Of a stretch of 64,000 bases of DNA, positions 24,277-31,075 are shown piece by piece. Positions within the stretch are counted from its first letter, which is position 1; each line of letters begins with the position of its first letter. Under the pieces are notes generated by a model, which saw only the letters and a program-made list of their open reading frames with translations, searched no databases and was not told the origin of the DNA. Source of the stretch: a bacterium A37T11 (GTDB lineage Bacteria > Bacteroidota > Bacteroidia > Sphingobacteriales > Sphingobacteriaceae); assembly GCA_900109895.1 (NCBI GenBank), contig FOBR01000016.1, positions 62,001-126,000 on the forward strand, read 5' to 3'. The translations under genes were made by a program, and so were the position numbers.

Positions 24277-24345
24277 GGCAATCCTGCTCAAACATTCAGG
24301 CGTATATACTGTTTATAGAAACGAATAACCCTTCGCTCATTGCTT

Positions 24346-25134
24346 ATGGAAAGTCGCTTATCCGTATTCCAATATCCAAGCCCTGTTATTGCCGCCGCCA
24401 TCCATGATGGCCACTGGATGGATGATGAGTTTAGAGCTTTGAGCCTGTTGAGCGAGCATCAACGGATGCAGGAGGAAGACCCTTATACCGATTTTTTGAC
24501 CGATTTGCCCGTAAACCGCATAGTCGTAGAGGTTTCCCGCTTTCAAACCGATTTGAACCGACCACGCGAAAAAGCCCTTTACTTAAAGCCGGAAGATGCC
24601 TGGGGGTTGCAGCTTTGGAAAAATTTGCCAACTGAAGAGATGCAAAAAAAGGCACTTGTGTTTTATGATGGCTTCTACGAACAAATGGGCTTCTTGTTAA
24701 AAAAGATTATTGGTGAGTATGGCGGTTTTGTACTGCTCGATATCCATTCTTACAACCACCGGCGGCAAGGCCCTGAAGTTAGTGCCCCTGAACAGGATAA
24801 TCCGGAAATTAACCTAGGCACCGCCTATAACCGGGAAAAATGGCGGCCACTTACGGCCCTATTTATGGCTAGCCTTGCTGAGCCAGAAATCCAGGGCAAG
24901 CATCCGGACGTGCGCGAAAATATTAAATTTAAAGGTGGATGGCTCTCACAATGGGTTAATGCGCATTATGGACATGCAGGCTGTGTGTTTTCAGTAGAAT
25001 TTAAAAAGACCTTTATGGACGAATGGACAGGACGGGTAGATATAGACCATCTCCTTGGGCTGAAAAAAGCCCTTACTGCCACGCTGCCATTGCTTAATTC
25101 TTCTTTTAAAGTAACCAAAATTTCTACCATATGA
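24346..25134 (+). CDS. N-formylglutamate amidohydrolase-like protein
   Basis: A 262-residue protein of the N-formylglutamate amidohydrolase (FGase) fold. Typical segments are AAIHDGHWMDDEFRALS (metal-ligand His region), VEVSRFQTDLNRPREKALY and FVLLDIHSYNHRR. Classical FGases release formate from N-formylglutamate in histidine breakdown, but no histidine-utilisation gene is nearby. A TTG in the same frame at 24340 is possible; I prefer the ATG at 24346. The stop codon overlaps the next start (ATGA), so it is translationally coupled to the QEGLA protein. It most likely acts as an amidase or peptidase in the unknown pathway of this operon. Confidence 0.85.
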   Translation: MESRLSVFQYPSPVIAAAIHDGHWMDDEFRALSLLSEHQRMQEEDPYTDFLTDLPVNRIVVEVSRFQTDLNRPREKALYLKPEDAWGLQLWKNLPTEEMQKKALVFYDGFYEQMGFLLKKIIGEYGGFVLLDIHSYNHRRQGPEVSAPEQDNPEINLGTAYNREKWRPLTALFMASLAEPEIQGKHPDVRENIKFKGGWLSQWVNAHYGHAGCVFSVEFKKTFMDEWTGRVDIDHLLGLKKALTATLPLLNSSFKVTKISTI

Positions 25135-26969
25135 CCCGTAAAAAGATCGCTGACCGCCTACTGGAGCAATTAACTAAGGGTGAAGCCATCCGCATGGAAT
25201 TTCCCGGCAACGGCTTATTGGTGATGGAGCGGCCGGTACCCTTCCTGATAGCCTACCGCATCCCGGCAGACGGCAAAGATGATTTTACCTCTACCCTTTG
25301 CCGCACCGAATCGTCATACCTCATGGCTGCCGATGGCCCCGAGATGGGTATGGCATTCATTACCGGACAGCTGGCCAAGGCGCTATCCGATAAATTTGGG
25401 GGCTTTTTACTATTGGAGATCTGGCTATCAAATCAGGCACGCAACGATACATTCACGATACACCTGAATCAAAAAAGTGCGCTGCCAGTGGCTGAGAAAC
25501 TATATACAGAGTTACAAGGCATTTCCATTGGGCAAACGCAGATCACCACCAGGCTCAACAAGGGTAAGACGCTGCCGCATCCGCCCCACTTCCATCCGCT
25601 GATGAACGATGATGAAGCCCGCAAGCATGAGATCATATTTATTGGCCTTGAAATAGCGCCCGTTTATATCAATATCCTTACCGGCACCCCATTTCCCATC
25701 TTTCTGCGTGAGCTGCGGGATGCCTTTAGCCGTGCTCTTCGCAAAAGTTTTTTTGAGTTTGTGCGGATGCGTACCTCCTACCACGTCACCCATTTTGAAA
25801 TGCTGGGCACCACGGTACTGGAAAATAAGGTCTATGAAATTGACCACGAGCTGGCCGAGTACAGCAACCTGTTTGATTTTTTGCTGCTCGTTACGCCCAT
25901 CAATGTAAAAGATGCCTGGCAGCATTTTGCCAAGAGTGGTTTTACAAAAGATCCGGTGTTTCATTACCGTCCGCTGCCGATAGACCCGGAAATCATTAAG
26001 CGCAAGATCTACAATTTGCCAATCGAAGATATTTCAGATCCTACTATTGCCTCGCTTTTCCGGGATAAACGAAAGGAAATAGACCGGATGCTCAATATGA
26101 TGGCCGAACGCGACAAACCTGACTTTATGCACAGCAGCCAGCAGATTTTTGGCGGTGTGGAAGAAAATTTACTTGAAACTGCCCGGGCCATTTTGGTTGC
26201 TATTGGCGTGCCACCCCATGTGCCAAAAAAAGACATGCTGAACGCAGTTGAATTTGCAAAAATGGCCGAAGAGGAGCTGGCCTGGTTAAAAATACAAGAG
26301 CCTGAAATATCCACCGTGGTTCGGGTGAGGGATGATGTGGAAGGCATCATGGTATCACGGGGTATTTTGAACATCAGCAAAAACTATCAGGTACCCCGCA
26401 ACCGGGCTTTTTCCTTGCTGCAGCATGAAATTGGCACGCACGTAGTAACCTACTATAATGGCAAGGCGCAACCCCTGAAACTTTTTTATATTGGGGTGCC
26501 GGGTTACGAACAGCTGCAGGAAGGTTTGGCGGTATTTGCAGAATATATGACCGGCGGGCTGAGCAATGACCGCTTACGAATTTTGGCGGCACGCGTGTTG
26601 GCTGTGCACCACATGGTGGCCGGCAACAGCTTTGCTAATACTTTTTTTATGCTAACAGAACATTATCTGTTTAAACCCGAAGTTGCCTTTCATATCTGTA
26701 TGCGGGTTTACCGTGGGGGCGGCCTAACCAAAGATGCTGTTTACTTAAAGGGCTTGCTTCACCTGATTGAGTATTTGAAACAGGGCAATGACCTGGGGCG
26801 TTTACTTATCGGTAAGATACGGCAAGACTACCTGCCCATTGTAGAGGAGCTAATACACCGCCGTCTGCTAGTCATAGCGCCCATCCAACCCCGGTATATG
26901 CAGGAACCGTATTTACAAAAAATAGCCTCCATCCGCAAAAATGGCAGTGTTTTCAAAATGATCAATTAA
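25131..26969 (+). CDS. QEGLA-motif (DUF1704/MATCAP-like) zinc peptidase
   Basis: A 612-residue protein with the DUF1704 catalytic region: HEIGTH at residues 432-437 (two zinc His and the catalytic Glu) and LQEGLAVFAEYMTGG at 462-476, whose Glu464 is the likely third ligand. This is the bacterial family called flavohemoglobin expression-modulating QEGLA motif protein. Its eukaryotic relatives (MATCAP) are carboxypeptidases that remove the C-terminal tyrosine of alpha-tubulin. Residues 1-300 carry no motif I recognise. It is coupled by a 4-base overlap to the FGase-like gene and followed after 16 bases by an ATP-grasp ligase. No signal peptide, so probably cytoplasmic. Confidence 0.88.
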   Translation: MTRKKIADRLLEQLTKGEAIRMEFPGNGLLVMERPVPFLIAYRIPADGKDDFTSTLCRTESSYLMAADGPEMGMAFITGQLAKALSDKFGGFLLLEIWLSNQARNDTFTIHLNQKSALPVAEKLYTELQGISIGQTQITTRLNKGKTLPHPPHFHPLMNDDEARKHEIIFIGLEIAPVYINILTGTPFPIFLRELRDAFSRALRKSFFEFVRMRTSYHVTHFEMLGTTVLENKVYEIDHELAEYSNLFDFLLLVTPINVKDAWQHFAKSGFTKDPVFHYRPLPIDPEIIKRKIYNLPIEDISDPTIASLFRDKRKEIDRMLNMMAERDKPDFMHSSQQIFGGVEENLLETARAILVAIGVPPHVPKKDMLNAVEFAKMAEEELAWLKIQEPEISTVVRVRDDVEGIMVSRGILNISKNYQVPRNRAFSLLQHEIGTHVVTYYNGKAQPLKLFYIGVPGYEQLQEGLAVFAEYMTGGLSNDRLRILAARVLAVHHMVAGNSFANTFFMLTEHYLFKPEVAFHICMRVYRGGGLTKDAVYLKGLLHLIEYLKQGNDLGRLLIGKIRQDYLPIVEELIHRRLLVIAPIQPRYMQEPYLQKIASIRKNGSVFKMIN

Positions 26970-26985
26970 GTTTAATCTCCGCAAT

Positions 26986-27987
26986 ATGAACATTGGATTT
27001 GTTGTAAACCAATTGCTTAAAGAAACGGCCGGCTACACCAGCACGGCCTTGGCCTTACAAGCGCATCAAATGGGGCATACGGTGCATTACATTGGCGTGG
27101 GCGACCTGGTTTATTTAGCGGATGAACACATGGGGGCACATGCCCGCACCTTGCCTGACAAACAATTTAGGAATACAACCACCTTTCTGGAAGCCGCCAG
27201 GGCTGTGGATAAAAAACTGATCAGCTCAAAACAGTTGGATGTGCTGCTGCTGCGCAATGATCCTTCAGCGGATATGGTCAACCGCCCCTGGGCACAGCAT
27301 GCGGGCATTTTGTTTGGTAAATTGGCCAAGCAGCAAGGGGTATTGGTATTGAATGATCCTGACGGGCTGGCTAATGCTTCCAGCAAAATGTACCTGCAGT
27401 ATTTTCCAAAGGAAGTACGGCCGCAAACGCTGGTAACACGCAGCGTGGCCGATGTGGAGGCTTTTTACCGCGTCCAAAAGCAGAAAATCATCGTCAAGCC
27501 CCTGCAAGGATCGGGTGGAAAAAATGTATTCTTGATCGATAAACAAGCGTCAAAAAACTTATCACAGATTGTGGAGGCTGTATGCCGCGATGGTTTTGCC
27601 ATTGCCCAGGAATATTTGCCTGCGGCAAAGAACGGTGATGTGCGGTTGTTTTTGATGGATGGCAAAGTGATTCGGGTGGATGGCAAAGTGGCGGCTATTA
27701 ACCGCCGCCAAAAATCGGGTGAAATTCGCAGCAACATTCACCAGGGCGGGTCGGCCTCGAAGGCCCGGATCACCAAAAAAATGCTGGAATTGGTAGCCAT
27801 TGTTGGCCCTAAACTGCACGCTGATGGCATGTTCCTGGTTGGTTTGGATATTGTAGGCGATAAGCTCATGGAGATTAATGTATTTAGCCCCGGAGGGTTG
27901 GTGCATGCTTCTAATCTTTATGGAGTAAATTTTTTTGAACCCGTGATTAAATCGTTGGAGGAACGGGTTAGGGAATCTGGGAAATAA
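26986..27987 (+). CDS. ATP-grasp ligase, glutathione-synthetase-like
   Basis: A 333-residue ATP-grasp enzyme resembling GshB/RimK-type carboxylate-amine ligases. The N-terminal part (NIGFVVNQLLKETAGYTST) leads to an ATP-grasp domain with the phosphate loop KPLQGSGGKNVFLID (about 166-180) and the metal-binding MEINVFSPGGL near residue 295, very like glutathione synthetase. No gamma-glutamylcysteine ligase is present, so glutathione synthesis is not implied. It is third in the operon with the FGase-like and QEGLA proteins. Its stop codon (27985-27987) lies inside the terminal repeat of the repeat unit that follows, so the natural C-terminus may have been reset by that element. Confidence 0.88.
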   Translation: MNIGFVVNQLLKETAGYTSTALALQAHQMGHTVHYIGVGDLVYLADEHMGAHARTLPDKQFRNTTTFLEAARAVDKKLISSKQLDVLLLRNDPSADMVNRPWAQHAGILFGKLAKQQGVLVLNDPDGLANASSKMYLQYFPKEVRPQTLVTRSVADVEAFYRVQKQKIIVKPLQGSGGKNVFLIDKQASKNLSQIVEAVCRDGFAIAQEYLPAAKNGDVRLFLMDGKVIRVDGKVAAINRRQKSGEIRSNIHQGGSASKARITKKMLELVAIVGPKLHADGMFLVGLDIVGDKLMEINVFSPGGLVHASNLYGVNFFEPVIKSLEERVRESGK

Positions 27988-28083
27988 ATCTTTATTGCTC
28001 CTCGCCGCTGAAACAAAACCGCTGCCCTTTGGTTGGGCAGCGGTATAATTTCCATGCGGCTGCTGGGCAATAAAGATTTATTT
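27982..28083. repeat. Nested inverted-repeat element, unit A
   Basis: A 102-base unit bounded by perfect 17-base inverted repeats (AAATAAATCTTTATTGC at 27982-27998; its reverse complement at 28067-28083). Inside is a second perfect hairpin with 9-base arms (CCGCTGCCC / GGGCAGCGG). The left terminal repeat contains the stop codon of the ATP-grasp gene. The size and nested palindromes resemble REP/MITE-type non-coding elements. Unit B at 28139 is a direct copy. Confidence 0.9.
28019..28043 (-). terminator. Inner hairpin of unit A, minus-strand terminator
   Basis: Nine perfect base pairs with a 7-base loop, followed on the minus strand by TTTTGTTT. It would act as a second intrinsic terminator for the leftward D-lactate-dehydrogenase-like gene. 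Confidence 0.6.
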
Positions 28084-28138
28084 AATAAACAGATTTCCTT
28101 TGGTGGGGCAGTGGTATAATTTCCATGCAGCGGCTCGG
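28084..28138. repeat. Truncated third copy of the nested repeat
   Basis: Bases from about 28095 match the right half of the unit (CCTTTGGTGGGGCAGTGG, then TATAATTTCCATGCAGCGGC) but lack the left terminal repeat and left hairpin arm and end in a diverged tail. It looks like a decayed copy trapped between A and B. Confidence 0.75.
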
Positions 28139-28239
28139 AAATAAATCTTTATTGCTCCTCGCCACGGAAACAAAACCGCTGCCCTTTGGTGGGGCAGCGG
28201 TATAATTTCCATGCGGCTGCTGGGCAATAAAGATTTATT
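28139..28239. repeat. Nested inverted-repeat element, unit B
   Basis: Direct repeat of unit A, near identical over 101 bases. Terminal repeats are at 28139-28155 and 28224-28239 (16 paired bases). The right terminal repeat contains the stop codon of the convergent FAD/Fe-S gene (28235-28237), mirroring the left end of unit A. Confidence 0.9.
28176..28200 (-). terminator. Inner hairpin of unit B, minus-strand terminator
   Basis: Nine perfect base pairs (CCGCTGCCC / GGGCAGCGG), 7-base loop, followed on the minus strand by TTTTG, 35 bases after the FAD/Fe-S gene stop. It is the first terminator that leftward transcription meets. Confidence 0.65.
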
Positions 28240-31075
28240 CAGTGGATGTACAATAATCTACTAAATATACAATAGATTCATAATTCTGGCCCGTAGCTTC
28301 TGCCATGGCTATTTCACAGGTTTTGCCTGTAGAGTAATGGCCTTCGTAGGCATGCTGATCTACTTCTGTAGCCTCGTGATGGGTAGCCGACCGGGTTAAC
28401 TCGGGGAATAAAAACCCCCTGTCTCCTGCCATACCACAACACCCGGCCGTTACGGGGATGGTCACTTTTTCTGAAAAATGCTGGGCTATGCGAAGTAATT
28501 TGGGTTGAAGCCCCATTTTGGTGAGCGTGCATACGGGGTGGAGTACCACACTTTCTTTTTTGCGAAGCGCCTGCATGCGCGGCATCAGCACATCGTGCAA
28601 AAAATCAATACTATCCAGAATGCGCAGGCGGTCAAATTTTCCTTGATTTTCTTGGGTCAGAAACGTGCGGCTCTCCTGGAGACTGTGCGTACACGAGGTG
28701 ACGTCGATCACTACTGGCAAAACTCCTTCTTCGGTCAGTTTCCAAAGGCGTTCGATCGTGTGGTTGGCGGTGTAATTATAGGCTTCCCCAAATCCCTTAG
28801 AAGAAAACAACTGCCCGCAACAAGTGCCATGCAGTTCTTGAGGTATGAACAATCGGACCCCTGCTTTTAAGGCAACTTCCCGCAGCGTATTCCGGATATC
28901 TTTTTGCCCGGGCTTGATGGCCCCCATCATGCTATTGATGCAGGATGGAAAATAAATGGCTTTTTCTTCCACCCCGGAATCCACTAGGTTTACATGACGG
29001 TCTGTTTGGATACTGGGTGCCGGGCGAAGTTCATTAGCCCAAAGCGGGAACGCTGGCAGAACTTTTCGTATGCCCGCTGTTAAACGGCGCATGCTGGTGG
29101 GGCCGAATATCTTATTGAGGGTTACGCCAGATGCCAGTGCAAAACGGGCGCCAGCACCGATGGCCTTAAAGTTTTTGGCTACCTGCATCGCAAGCCAATT
29201 TGCCCAGCGGGAGTGACTTTCGCGCCGTAAACGCTTAACGAGGCTACCGGTATTAATATCCACTGGGCAGGCAGATGCACATAACCCATCGACGGCGCAG
29301 GTATCAAGGCCGCTATACTGGTACTGATCCAATAATAACTTAAACTCCCGTTTTTCGCCACGCTTATCCAGGTTGCGCAGTTCCCTACGCACCACAATGC
29401 GTTGACGCGGTGTAAGGGTAATATCACGACTGGGGCATTTATGTTCACAATATCCGCACTCGATGCACTTGTCCACTTCTGACTCAACGCTGGGCAGCGG
29501 CTTCAGGTCGCGGATATGTGCATCGGCATGAGCGTTAATAATGACGCCGGGATTGAGCAGGCCTTCCGGATCAGCTGCCTGTTTTATAGCTTTCATGATG
29601 GCATAAGCCTCTCCACCCCATTCGGTTTCTATAAAAGGCGCCATGTTTCGTCCGGTACCGTGTTCTGCTTTCAGGGCTCCGTCATATTTATTGACCACCA
29701 AGTTAACCACTTCCTTCAGGAACGTGTCATAACGGGCAATTTCAGTCGGGCTATCAAAAGCCTGCGTTACTACAAAGTGGATGTTTCCGTCTTTGGCATG
29801 GCCAAAGATAATGGCTTCGTCATAGCCGTATTGTTTAAAAAGCTGGTGCAAGTCTAAAATGGCATCGCCCAACTTGGCCACCGGGAAGGCCACGTCTTCA
29901 AGGATGACGGTAGTACCGCTGGCACGCACGGCGCCTACGGCCGGAAACATGCCTTTGCGCACCTTCCACAAGAACGCCTGCTCTGCCGGATCAGTTGTAA
30001 AGACGGGTTCGTTTAGCATAGAAAGGCCACCTGAGATGGCCAGGAACTTGCCCGTTTTTTCATGCAGCGTTTCCTGATGTTCACCTTGGTATTCAATCAA
30101 TAAGGCCGCAGCAGTTTCAGAAAGTGTTCGAATGATTGCTGGAATTCCTTTCATATTTTCCACAGAACGCAGAGAGGCCCGGTCCATCAGCTCAACAGCT
30201 TCAGCCCCCGAATCAGTAAGCGGGACAATGGCCTGGCAGGCGGCATAGATATCCGGAAAGTACACCATAGCCGTTGACTTAAAAGGAAGGTCAGGCACAG
30301 TGGTTAGCACGGCTTCCGCAATAAAACCTAAGGTGCCTTCTGCACCGATGAGCAGGTGCGCCATGATATCCAGCGGATGCTCGTGGTCTATAAACGCATT
30401 CAAAGAATAACCCACCGTATTTTTTGTCAGGTATTTGCTGCGTATGCGCTGGCTGAGTTCTGGTTGCTGGTGGATGCGGTTTCGTTGTTGCTTCAAAACT
30501 TGGTAAAGTTCAGGGCATTCCTGTTCAAACCGGGTATAATCGGCTGGTTTTTCAGTACTAAAAACTTGCCCGGATGGCAGCATGAACCGCACAAAGCGCG
30601 TGGTATGGTATGAATTTAGTTTTACACCGCAACACATGCCACTCGAGTTGTTGGAAAGGATACCCCCCATCATGGCTGCGTTAATACTGGCCGGGTCAGG
30701 ACCGATCTTGCGTTTGTATTTTTTTAAGTAGGTATTGACCATTGCCCCGGTAATGCCTGGCTGTACCCGAACATAGGCCCCTTCGCTTTCTATAAAAATA
30801 CCATCCCAAAAGCGGTTTAATACCACCAGGATGCCATCGGTAATTGATTGGCCCGAAAGGCTGGTACCACCGGCACGAAACGTAAGCGGAATATGGTTCT
30901 TACGTGAAAATTCAAATAGGGCCTGCACTTCTTTTTCAGAAGCCGGCAATACGACTGCCTTTGGCTTGAGATGATAAAAACCCGCATCAGCAGCGAATGC
31001 TACCAGGTCAATTAAAGATGTCTTAACGCGTTCTTCGGGTAAAAACCCTTCTAAAAGTTCTTTTATATTGTTCAT
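28235..31075 (-). CDS. FAD-binding / Fe-S oxidoreductase, D-lactate dehydrogenase-like (YdiJ type)
   Basis: A 946-residue fusion. It has an FAD-binding PCMH domain (about 36-215, with IPLTFRAGGTSLSGQSITDG and GPDPASINAAMMGGILSNNS), an FAD-oxidase C-terminal domain (about 240-515, AEHGTGRNMAPFIETEWG), two 4Fe-4S motifs (CIECGYCEHKCP near 540 and CAVDGLCASACPVD near 595), and a C-terminal pair of CCG domains (GTCCGQLFSSKGF, AGCCGMAGDRGF). This layout is that of D-lactate or D-2-hydroxyacid dehydrogenases passing electrons to the quinone pool. The exact 2-hydroxyacid is not determined. It is transcribed toward the repeat array, which supplies its stop codon and terminators, and starts 80 bases after the sugar transporter. 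Confidence 0.93.
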   Translation of the reverse strand: MNNIKELLEGFLPEERVKTSLIDLVAFAADAGFYHLKPKAVVLPASEKEVQALFEFSRKNHIPLTFRAGGTSLSGQSITDGILVVLNRFWDGIFIESEGAYVRVQPGITGAMVNTYLKKYKRKIGPDPASINAAMMGGILSNNSSGMCCGVKLNSYHTTRFVRFMLPSGQVFSTEKPADYTRFEQECPELYQVLKQQRNRIHQQPELSQRIRSKYLTKNTVGYSLNAFIDHEHPLDIMAHLLIGAEGTLGFIAEAVLTTVPDLPFKSTAMVYFPDIYAACQAIVPLTDSGAEAVELMDRASLRSVENMKGIPAIIRTLSETAAALLIEYQGEHQETLHEKTGKFLAISGGLSMLNEPVFTTDPAEQAFLWKVRKGMFPAVGAVRASGTTVILEDVAFPVAKLGDAILDLHQLFKQYGYDEAIIFGHAKDGNIHFVVTQAFDSPTEIARYDTFLKEVVNLVVNKYDGALKAEHGTGRNMAPFIETEWGGEAYAIMKAIKQAADPEGLLNPGVIINAHADAHIRDLKPLPSVESEVDKCIECGYCEHKCPSRDITLTPRQRIVVRRELRNLDKRGEKREFKLLLDQYQYSGLDTCAVDGLCASACPVDINTGSLVKRLRRESHSRWANWLAMQVAKNFKAIGAGARFALASGVTLNKIFGPTSMRRLTAGIRKVLPAFPLWANELRPAPSIQTDRHVNLVDSGVEEKAIYFPSCINSMMGAIKPGQKDIRNTLREVALKAGVRLFIPQELHGTCCGQLFSSKGFGEAYNYTANHTIERLWKLTEEGVLPVVIDVTSCTHSLQESRTFLTQENQGKFDRLRILDSIDFLHDVLMPRMQALRKKESVVLHPVCTLTKMGLQPKLLRIAQHFSEKVTIPVTAGCCGMAGDRGFLFPELTRSATHHEATEVDQHAYEGHYSTGKTCEIAMAEATGQNYESIVYLVDYCTSTE

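Follow-up and report, generated by a model that had tools for sequence, protein, structure and literature searches.

In this study, we found that three adjoining genes in the bacterium A37T11 (Sphingobacteriaceae), encoding an FGase-like amidohydrolase, a MATCAP-like peptidase and an ATP-grasp ligase, form a single co-inherited unit whose members occur together far beyond chance. The three-gene operon occupies positions 24346-27987 on the + strand of the 64,000-nucleotide stretch that we analysed (contig FOBR01000016.1, positions 62,001 to 126,000; hereafter the window), with a 4-base overlap between genes 1 and 2 and a 16-base gap before gene 3. An earlier note based on the letters of the window and its open reading frames (ORFs), the original prediction, had placed the three ORFs in this way, and its coordinates were reproduced. 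MATCAP is among the enzymes that detyrosinate tubulin. In the literature that we searched, no role is stated for its bacterial relatives, and we did not find the source of the name "flavohemoglobin expression-modulating" given to them. The operon itself is nowhere described there, although an earlier mention is possible in the 2009 amidoligase survey of Iyer and colleagues, which reportedly lists many ligase-peptidase neighbourhoods.

The grouping of the three genes is strict among the relatives of A37T11. MATCAP occurs in 10 of 148 Bacteroidota genomes, and a ligase of the NF009110 type (at least 390 bits) was found in exactly these 10, always adjoining MATCAP; the next best ligase score anywhere in the sample was 194 bits. 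By our own arithmetic, which treats the genomes as independent draws and is uncorrected for kinship, the chance of this coincidence is about 1e-15. FGase adjoins MATCAP in all of these genomes except one (G053). Within the window's own family, 35 of 151 genomes contain MATCAP, and all three genes were present at each of 28 further loci examined. The A37T11 genome has one copy each of MATCAP and FGase, and apart from the operon's ligase, the ligase model matches only RimK, which scores much lower. A DNA alignment of the operon flanks against close relatives gave no result.

The same arrangement extends across phyla. Of 562 relatives found in a scan of 84,980 species, the best 80 loci were examined; because these are the closest relatives, the sample is biased towards the window's type. 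The ligase stands beside MATCAP at all 80 loci and FGase at 71, nearly always in the order FGase-MATCAP-ligase, and at 3 of the 9 loci without FGase the MATCAP gene lies at a contig edge. The hosts belong to about a dozen phyla in all: Bacteroidota, Campylobacterota, Planctomycetota, Kiritimatiellae/Verrucomicrobia, Acidobacteriota, Calditrichota, Pseudomonadota, Poribacteria, Myxococcota-type metagenome-assembled genomes, Gemmatimonadota and Actinomycetes. No fourth gene family is conserved across phyla among the 80 loci. This conserved neighbourhood and the co-occurrence across phyla bear out the idea, put forward in the original prediction, that the three genes are one functional unit; the outcome that it had named as telling against the idea, genes scattered in most relatives, is not what we observed within the trio clade.

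Several individual loci depart from or add to this layout. A planctomycete-type locus (L089) carries three ligases, and two others (L095 and L118) carry repeated MATCAP-ligase units, as if a pathway had been extended stepwise. In Pararhizobium (L207), a MnmC-family methyltransferase follows the ligase, and is itself followed by DUF2934, glgA and glgX. Sinorhizobium meliloti 1021 (L204) has a complete trio on pSymB (NC_003078.1, about 1122942-1126743), and the genetic tractability of this strain makes direct testing possible.

The association does not hold for the MATCAP family as a whole. Among 274 Gammaproteobacteria, a sample with less bias, MATCAP was present in 39, and 37 loci were read (mostly 5 kb each side). 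At 26 of these loci we found a "solo" MATCAP, mostly 426-465 amino acids long with an HE(GWV/AFV and similar)H motif and a retained QEGL, and neither FGase nor an NF009110-type ligase within the stretch read; a RimK-like ligase lies near two of them (L175 and L176). The remaining 11 loci are of trio or fusion types, with FGase at all 11 and the ligase at 10. In a quick MATCAP tree, the solo form makes up one clade (support 100), the fusion forms cluster with the short ones (98), and what remains are the long trio forms. Only the trio/fusion branch thus shows the link to ligase and FGase, and the peptidase-ligase pairing claimed in the original prediction stands for that branch and fails family-wide. 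The human MATCAP fragment has a very long branch (5.1) and cannot be placed in this tree; its scores of 44 bits with the trio profile and 27 bits with the solo profile are suggestive only. Solo loci (L137-L161, L167-L191 and L202) share no conserved neighbour and have a different HExxxH spacer. A solo-type MATCAP was also seen in a record of Pseudomonas phage Y1 (L208; OQ572403.1, 63533-64642), an unannotated UNVERIFIED entry that may be host DNA.

The first enzyme of the operon clearly belongs to the FGase family (PF05013, E 8.7e-24; 85.3 against a Pfam gathering score of 28.9). Its structure model (predicted local distance difference test score, pLDDT, 94.3) has the FGase 2q7s as its best PDB match (Z 23.9 over 239 residues), followed by poly-gamma-glutamate hydrolases (Z about 12) and then M14 carboxypeptidases. 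H20, E43-E44-D45, D132 and H134 are invariant in 32 of 32 relatives. A HutG or histidine-degradation role is rejected, since the protein scores 27.5 with the HutG equivalog TIGR02017, whose cut-off is 278.75.

Sequence and model comparison indicate that the second enzyme is truly homologous to human MATCAP and that its predicted metal site is intact. It matches PF08014 at E 8.6e-83 (278.7 bits; gathering score 27), and in the structure comparison, residues 251-612 of the model match human MATCAP, as expected from the family assignment made in the original prediction. The zinc ligands of HEIGTH and E464, whose loss in homologues would have spoken against that prediction, are invariant among 51 relatives, and the further invariant residues R525, K534, D535, Y538, L539 and G541 have counterparts in human MATCAP. 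The window peptidase falls below the cut-off of the QEGLA hypothetical equivalog TIGR02421 (307.3; cut-off 338.65), which Photobacterium, rhizobial and solo relatives pass.

The N-terminus of this peptidase is a previously unrecognised degenerate FGase domain, making the protein a pseudo-FGase-MATCAP fusion. The roughly 231 extra N-terminal residues have no Pfam match, but an hhalign comparison with the FGase profile gave a probability of 95.6 and E 1.2e-8, compared with E 0.11-0.86 for control pairs. A hidden Markov model (HMM) built from these N-termini alone picks up the true FGase domains in fusion proteins (E 4.8e-12 and 8.3e-11), and in the structure model, residues 25-214 match FGase 2q7s_B with Z 13.3 and 3.2 Å over 178 residues. 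The D-I-H motif of FGase corresponds here to E-I-W, with E96 in 51 and W98 in 43 of 51 relatives. The first histidine also seems to be lost, as judged by eye from a shared (V/L)P(Y/F)(V/L)C motif in a region where profile alignments are unreliable. With the ligands kept in FGase and lost in the peptidase N-terminus, the operon encodes an active-looking FGase and, as part of the peptidase, a dead FGase domain.

FGase and MATCAP are also found as a single ORF, in one Bacteroidota locus (L013, 667 amino acids) and in the Gammaproteobacteria L192, L193, Photobacterium DA100 (L205) and Vibrio HDW18 (L206). The recurrence of this fusion in several lineages indicates that FGase and peptidase act together. 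One fusion (L193:2058-4073), in a 1.4-Mb genome and with no adjoining ligase, has D-V-R at the ligand motif D-x-H of its FGase part, possibly an FGase domain becoming inactive.

Features of the FGase-MATCAP-ligase operon, in window positions
Feature	Coordinates	Strand	Remarks
FGase-like zinc amidohydrolase (PF05013), 262 amino acids	24346..25134	+	ATG start; TTG at 24340 also possible
Probable FGase metal-binding motif, H20-D-G-H23 codons	24403..24414	+	H20 and G22 in 32/32 relatives, H23 in 30/32; ligand role from the known fold
Probable FGase metal-binding motif, D132-I-H134 codons	24739..24747	+	D132 and H134 invariant, 32/32
MATCAP/QEGLA-family metallopeptidase, 612 amino acids, two-domain long form	25131..26969	+	PF08014, residues 264-596; model pLDDT 89.3
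Degenerate FGase domain, peptidase residues 1-231	25131..25823	+	From hhalign, HMM and structure; D-I-H replaced by E96-I-W98
Predicted MATCAP catalytic domain, residues 234-612	25830..26966	+	Human MATCAP 7z5g_A, VIA-align Z 24.9, 3.0 Å, 291 residues; profile match to 7z5g E 4.7e-11
HEIGTH, residues 432-437: predicted metal ligands H432 and H437, catalytic E433	26424..26441	+	H, E and H in 51/51 relatives; HEIGTH also in human MATCAP
E464 of QEGLA, predicted third metal ligand	26520..26522	+	Invariant, 51/51 relatives
Glutathione-synthetase-type ATP-grasp ligase, NF009110/PRK12458 subfamily, 333 amino acids	26986..27987	+	NF009110 score 412.2, cut-off 408

The third enzyme is an ATP-grasp ligase, as originally predicted, but the parallel then drawn with TTL did not survive, the nearest relative being prokaryotic GshB. 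Both GSH-S domains are present (PF02955, E 2.5e-49; PF02951, E 1.8e-12), the profile match to E. coli GshB runs end to end (E 9.4e-65) and the nearest structure is GshB. The score exceeds the cut-off of the NF009110/PRK12458 "glutathione synthetase" subfamily, so the earlier statement that no glutathione gene lies nearby needs correcting: the ATP-grasp gene is itself of this family. By contrast, the ligase falls short of the RimK models (RimK_fam, 88.3 vs 143.4; S6 ligase, 48.3 vs 331), and TTL is not among its Pfam matches, which comprise GSH-S_ATP, RimK, GSH-S_N, YheCD and ATP-grasp_3 only. Any analogy with tubulin tyrosination is thus one of chemistry and not of a shared ligase.

Published expression data offer a clue to function. 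In Photobacterium damselae RM-71 grown in 1% vs 3% NaCl, RS17020 ("GshB") was up 38.4-fold and RS17025 ("QEGLA") up 27.5-fold; the two are neighbours by locus tag and among the most induced genes at low salt, and the authors read GshB as glutathione synthetase (PMC10308900). RimK was up 52-fold in the same response (PMC10308900). Photobacterium DA100 carries a ligase and an FGase-MATCAP fusion on its 2.1-Mb second replicon, and from this we infer that the P. damselae pair is probably a trio system. In Vibrio vulnificus, COG3930 (VV2_1203) and a "glutathione synthetase" (VV2_1204) are neighbouring, clade-specific genes (PMC3091676).

What might such a unit do? We infer a make-and-remove role for the trio, as the original prediction did, and our tentative suggestion, which we regard as possible though short of even odds, is that it is an amide-bond build-and-trim module in which the ligase would make a small N-acyl or glutamyl peptide that MATCAP and FGase dismantle. 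The small acidic substrate of the ligase, perhaps an N-acyl or gamma-linked glutamyl or aspartyl compound, would have a free carboxylate to which the enzyme couples an amino acid at the cost of ATP, and the product would be a small peptide. MATCAP would take the C-terminal residue back off, and FGase would then cleave the remaining N-acyl or glutamyl amide. The dead FGase domain may bind the substrate or serve as a docking site for the active FGase, so that both hydrolytic steps stay together. We favour a small peptide because the ligase is GshB-like, because ligases occur in tandem and because no target or precursor gene is conserved; the tandem ligase copies at L089, L095 and L118 fit stepwise addition of different residues. 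The poly-gamma-glutamate hydrolases and M14 carboxypeptidases that come next among the structural neighbours of FGase also support this suggestion, as does an unrelated operon of other Bacteroidota (L131-L134, described below) that again sets an FGase among amide-forming enzymes and a peptidase. The dependence of expression on salt in Photobacterium suggests that the module helps cells to adjust to osmotic conditions or salinity.

Several observations weigh against the build-and-trim proposal. FGase is absent, with peptidase and ligase kept, at seven loci (L019, L098, L117, L121, L122, L123 and L129), and the adjacent ligase is absent at two fusion loci (L193 and L206), so that neither partner is strictly required. 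The operon contains no N-acyltransferase or other gene that would make an N-acyl substrate. The fusion form of P. damselae RS17025 is deduced from related species and not from its own sequence. Moreover, TMCP1/2, the MATCAP relatives that have been characterised, have protein tails and not small peptides as their targets (PMC10499314).

This last point leads to the main rival explanation, reversible editing of a protein C-terminal tail, in which the ATP-grasp enzyme would add residues and MATCAP (and FGase) remove them, like RimK/RimB on ribosomal protein S6 or TTL/TTLL with MATCAP and CCPs on tubulin. We consider it unlikely, if less so than any other competitor. The clear homology with human MATCAP, including HEIGTH and the conserved R525, K534-D535 and Y538-L539, is what it would lead one to expect, as is an FGase fold common to bacterial M14 metallo-carboxypeptidases (4a37/4b6z). 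It also draws on the co-induction of RimK at low salt in P. damselae, and RimB-RimK shows that such logic operates in bacteria (PMC12239564). However, the ligase groups with GshB, whose substrate is a free peptide, and not with RimK or TTL; the genome has its own separate RimB-RimK pair (G000:C12), and no gene for a target protein is conserved in the neighbourhood.

A second alternative is scavenging or detoxification, whereby the hydrolases would degrade acidic peptides that are modified or isopeptide-linked (remnants of cell wall, polyglutamate or damaged proteins), with the ligase conjugating or recycling the unit set free. The non-FGase structures closest to the operon's FGase include poly-gamma-glutamate hydrolases (3a9l, 5onj, 21dc) and the D,L-carboxypeptidase Csd4, and the operon has two hydrolases to one ligase. 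Yet each hydrolase is accompanied by two or three ligases at some loci, and FGase can go while ligase and peptidase remain. An SDF (dicarboxylate) symporter next to the trio would count in favour, but like aroC it is conserved in Flavobacteriia only. We judge this alternative improbable.

A third possibility is that the ligase is an ordinary glutathione synthetase, making glutathione or a close analogue, and that the hydrolases turn the thiol over. The GSH-S family membership and the NCBI name of the ligase point this way, as does a Photobacterium copy that passes the PRK05246 cut-off (292 vs 272). The window ligase, however, misses both GshB equivalog cut-offs (TIGR01380, 206.8 vs 299; PRK05246, 222 vs 272), and glutamate-cysteine ligase (PF04107, PF04262) is absent genome-wide, both families being detected in control genomes. 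Thus, the ligase does not complete a canonical glutathione pathway, and glutathione biosynthesis by the window operon is rejected. In addition, 4 of 10 trio genomes tested have a separate canonical GshB (452-474 bits) besides the trio ligase (199-207 bits). This explanation is largely refuted, and we give it very little weight. Finally, a graspetide-like cluster for a ribosomally synthesised and post-translationally modified peptide (RiPP), in which the ligase would modify a small precursor and MATCAP or FGase mature the product, has a layout known from ligase-peptidase RiPP loci in general but is the least credible of all, because the graspetide-maturase model scores 21.7 vs 350, the spacing inside the operon is too tight for a precursor gene and, in keeping with the original prediction, no conserved small ORF turned up within the operon or next to it when the gaps were compared with those of six close relatives (a phyla-wide search was not made).

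Taken together, our results leave as a possible, if tentative, picture an undescribed and widespread metabolite or protein-tail cycle, responsive to salinity, in which a GshB-type ligase would build a small acidic peptide and MATCAP-FGase dismantle it. If this is true, the animal tubulin-tail enzyme MATCAP stems from a family with an older bacterial role next to an ATP-grasp ligase. The constant company of ligase and FGase narrows the question of bacterial MATCAP to one testable pathway. There is also a practical consequence for annotation: many genes named "glutathione synthetase" or "flavohemoglobin expression-modulating QEGLA protein" probably belong to the trio system and not to glutathione or nitric oxide metabolism, probably including a top low-salt gene pair in P. 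damselae.

Other features were noted around the operon and in related genomes. Just past the ligase gene, positions 27977-28239 contain a 67-base unit in three copies and a 106-base unit in two (96%), with strong hairpins (ACCGCTGCCC...GGGCAGCGGT); lying between convergent genes, these units probably form a double terminator or else a small repeat element. Convergent to the trio, at 28235-31075, lies a gene for a 946-amino-acid fused protein with flavin adenine dinucleotide (FAD)-linked oxidase and Fe-S/CCG parts, which resembles the D-2-hydroxyglutarate dehydrogenase YdiJ and GlcD, far under cut-offs (190 vs 1350). In other Bacteroidota (L131-L134; for example, L132:2202-6399), a conserved operon encodes a C39-type peptidase, an RLAN/RimK ATP-grasp protein (about 490 amino acids), a GCS2-family ligase and FGase, a second, unrelated case joining FGase with amide-forming enzymes and a peptidase.

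Each component of the trio resembles a characterised enzyme while differing from it in context. The operon's FGase shares fold and PF05013 family with HutG-type N-formylglutamate deformylase, but is far below the equivalog cut-off and is coupled to a ligase and a peptidase. The ligase has the two-domain GSH-S architecture of bacterial GshB, although it lies under both equivalog cut-offs in a host without glutamate-cysteine ligase, and canonical GshB coexists with it elsewhere. Human MATCAP1/TMCP1 (KIAA0895L) and the bacterial peptidase share the predicted catalytic fold, HEIGTH, the EG third ligand and a conserved R, KD and YL-G core; the bacterial protein has in addition the N-terminal degenerate FGase domain and an operon with ligase and FGase. 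Identity is only about 20%, and tubulin is not expected to be the substrate of the bacterial protein.

At the level of whole systems, the vertebrate N-acetylaspartylglutamate (NAAG) cycle, which includes a carboxypeptidase step, offers three matching chemistries: an ATP-dependent peptide bond, removal of the C-terminal residue and hydrolysis of an N-acyl amide. The protein family differs at each step, and the likeness, both to the RIMKL (RIMKLA/B) ligase and aspartoacylase (PMC5756261) and to the carboxypeptidase, is an analogy that we propose and not homology. The RimB-RimK (RimABK) system of S6 glutamylation likewise pairs an ATP-grasp ligase with a peptidase, but its peptidase, RimB, is a retropepsin-like aspartic enzyme, its ligase, RimK, belongs to another ATP-grasp subfamily and FGase is missing, whereas the partner in the trio is MATCAP. 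In Pseudomonas aeruginosa, the Rlo operon (retropepsin RloA, RloB and ATP-grasp RloC) also joins ligase and peptidase and has a link to osmotic stress (PMC12239564), although it encodes secreted aspartic peptidases and a membrane protein and has neither MATCAP nor FGase. The trio is another ligase-plus-peptidase module, alongside RimBK and Rlo, and one with a broad distribution.

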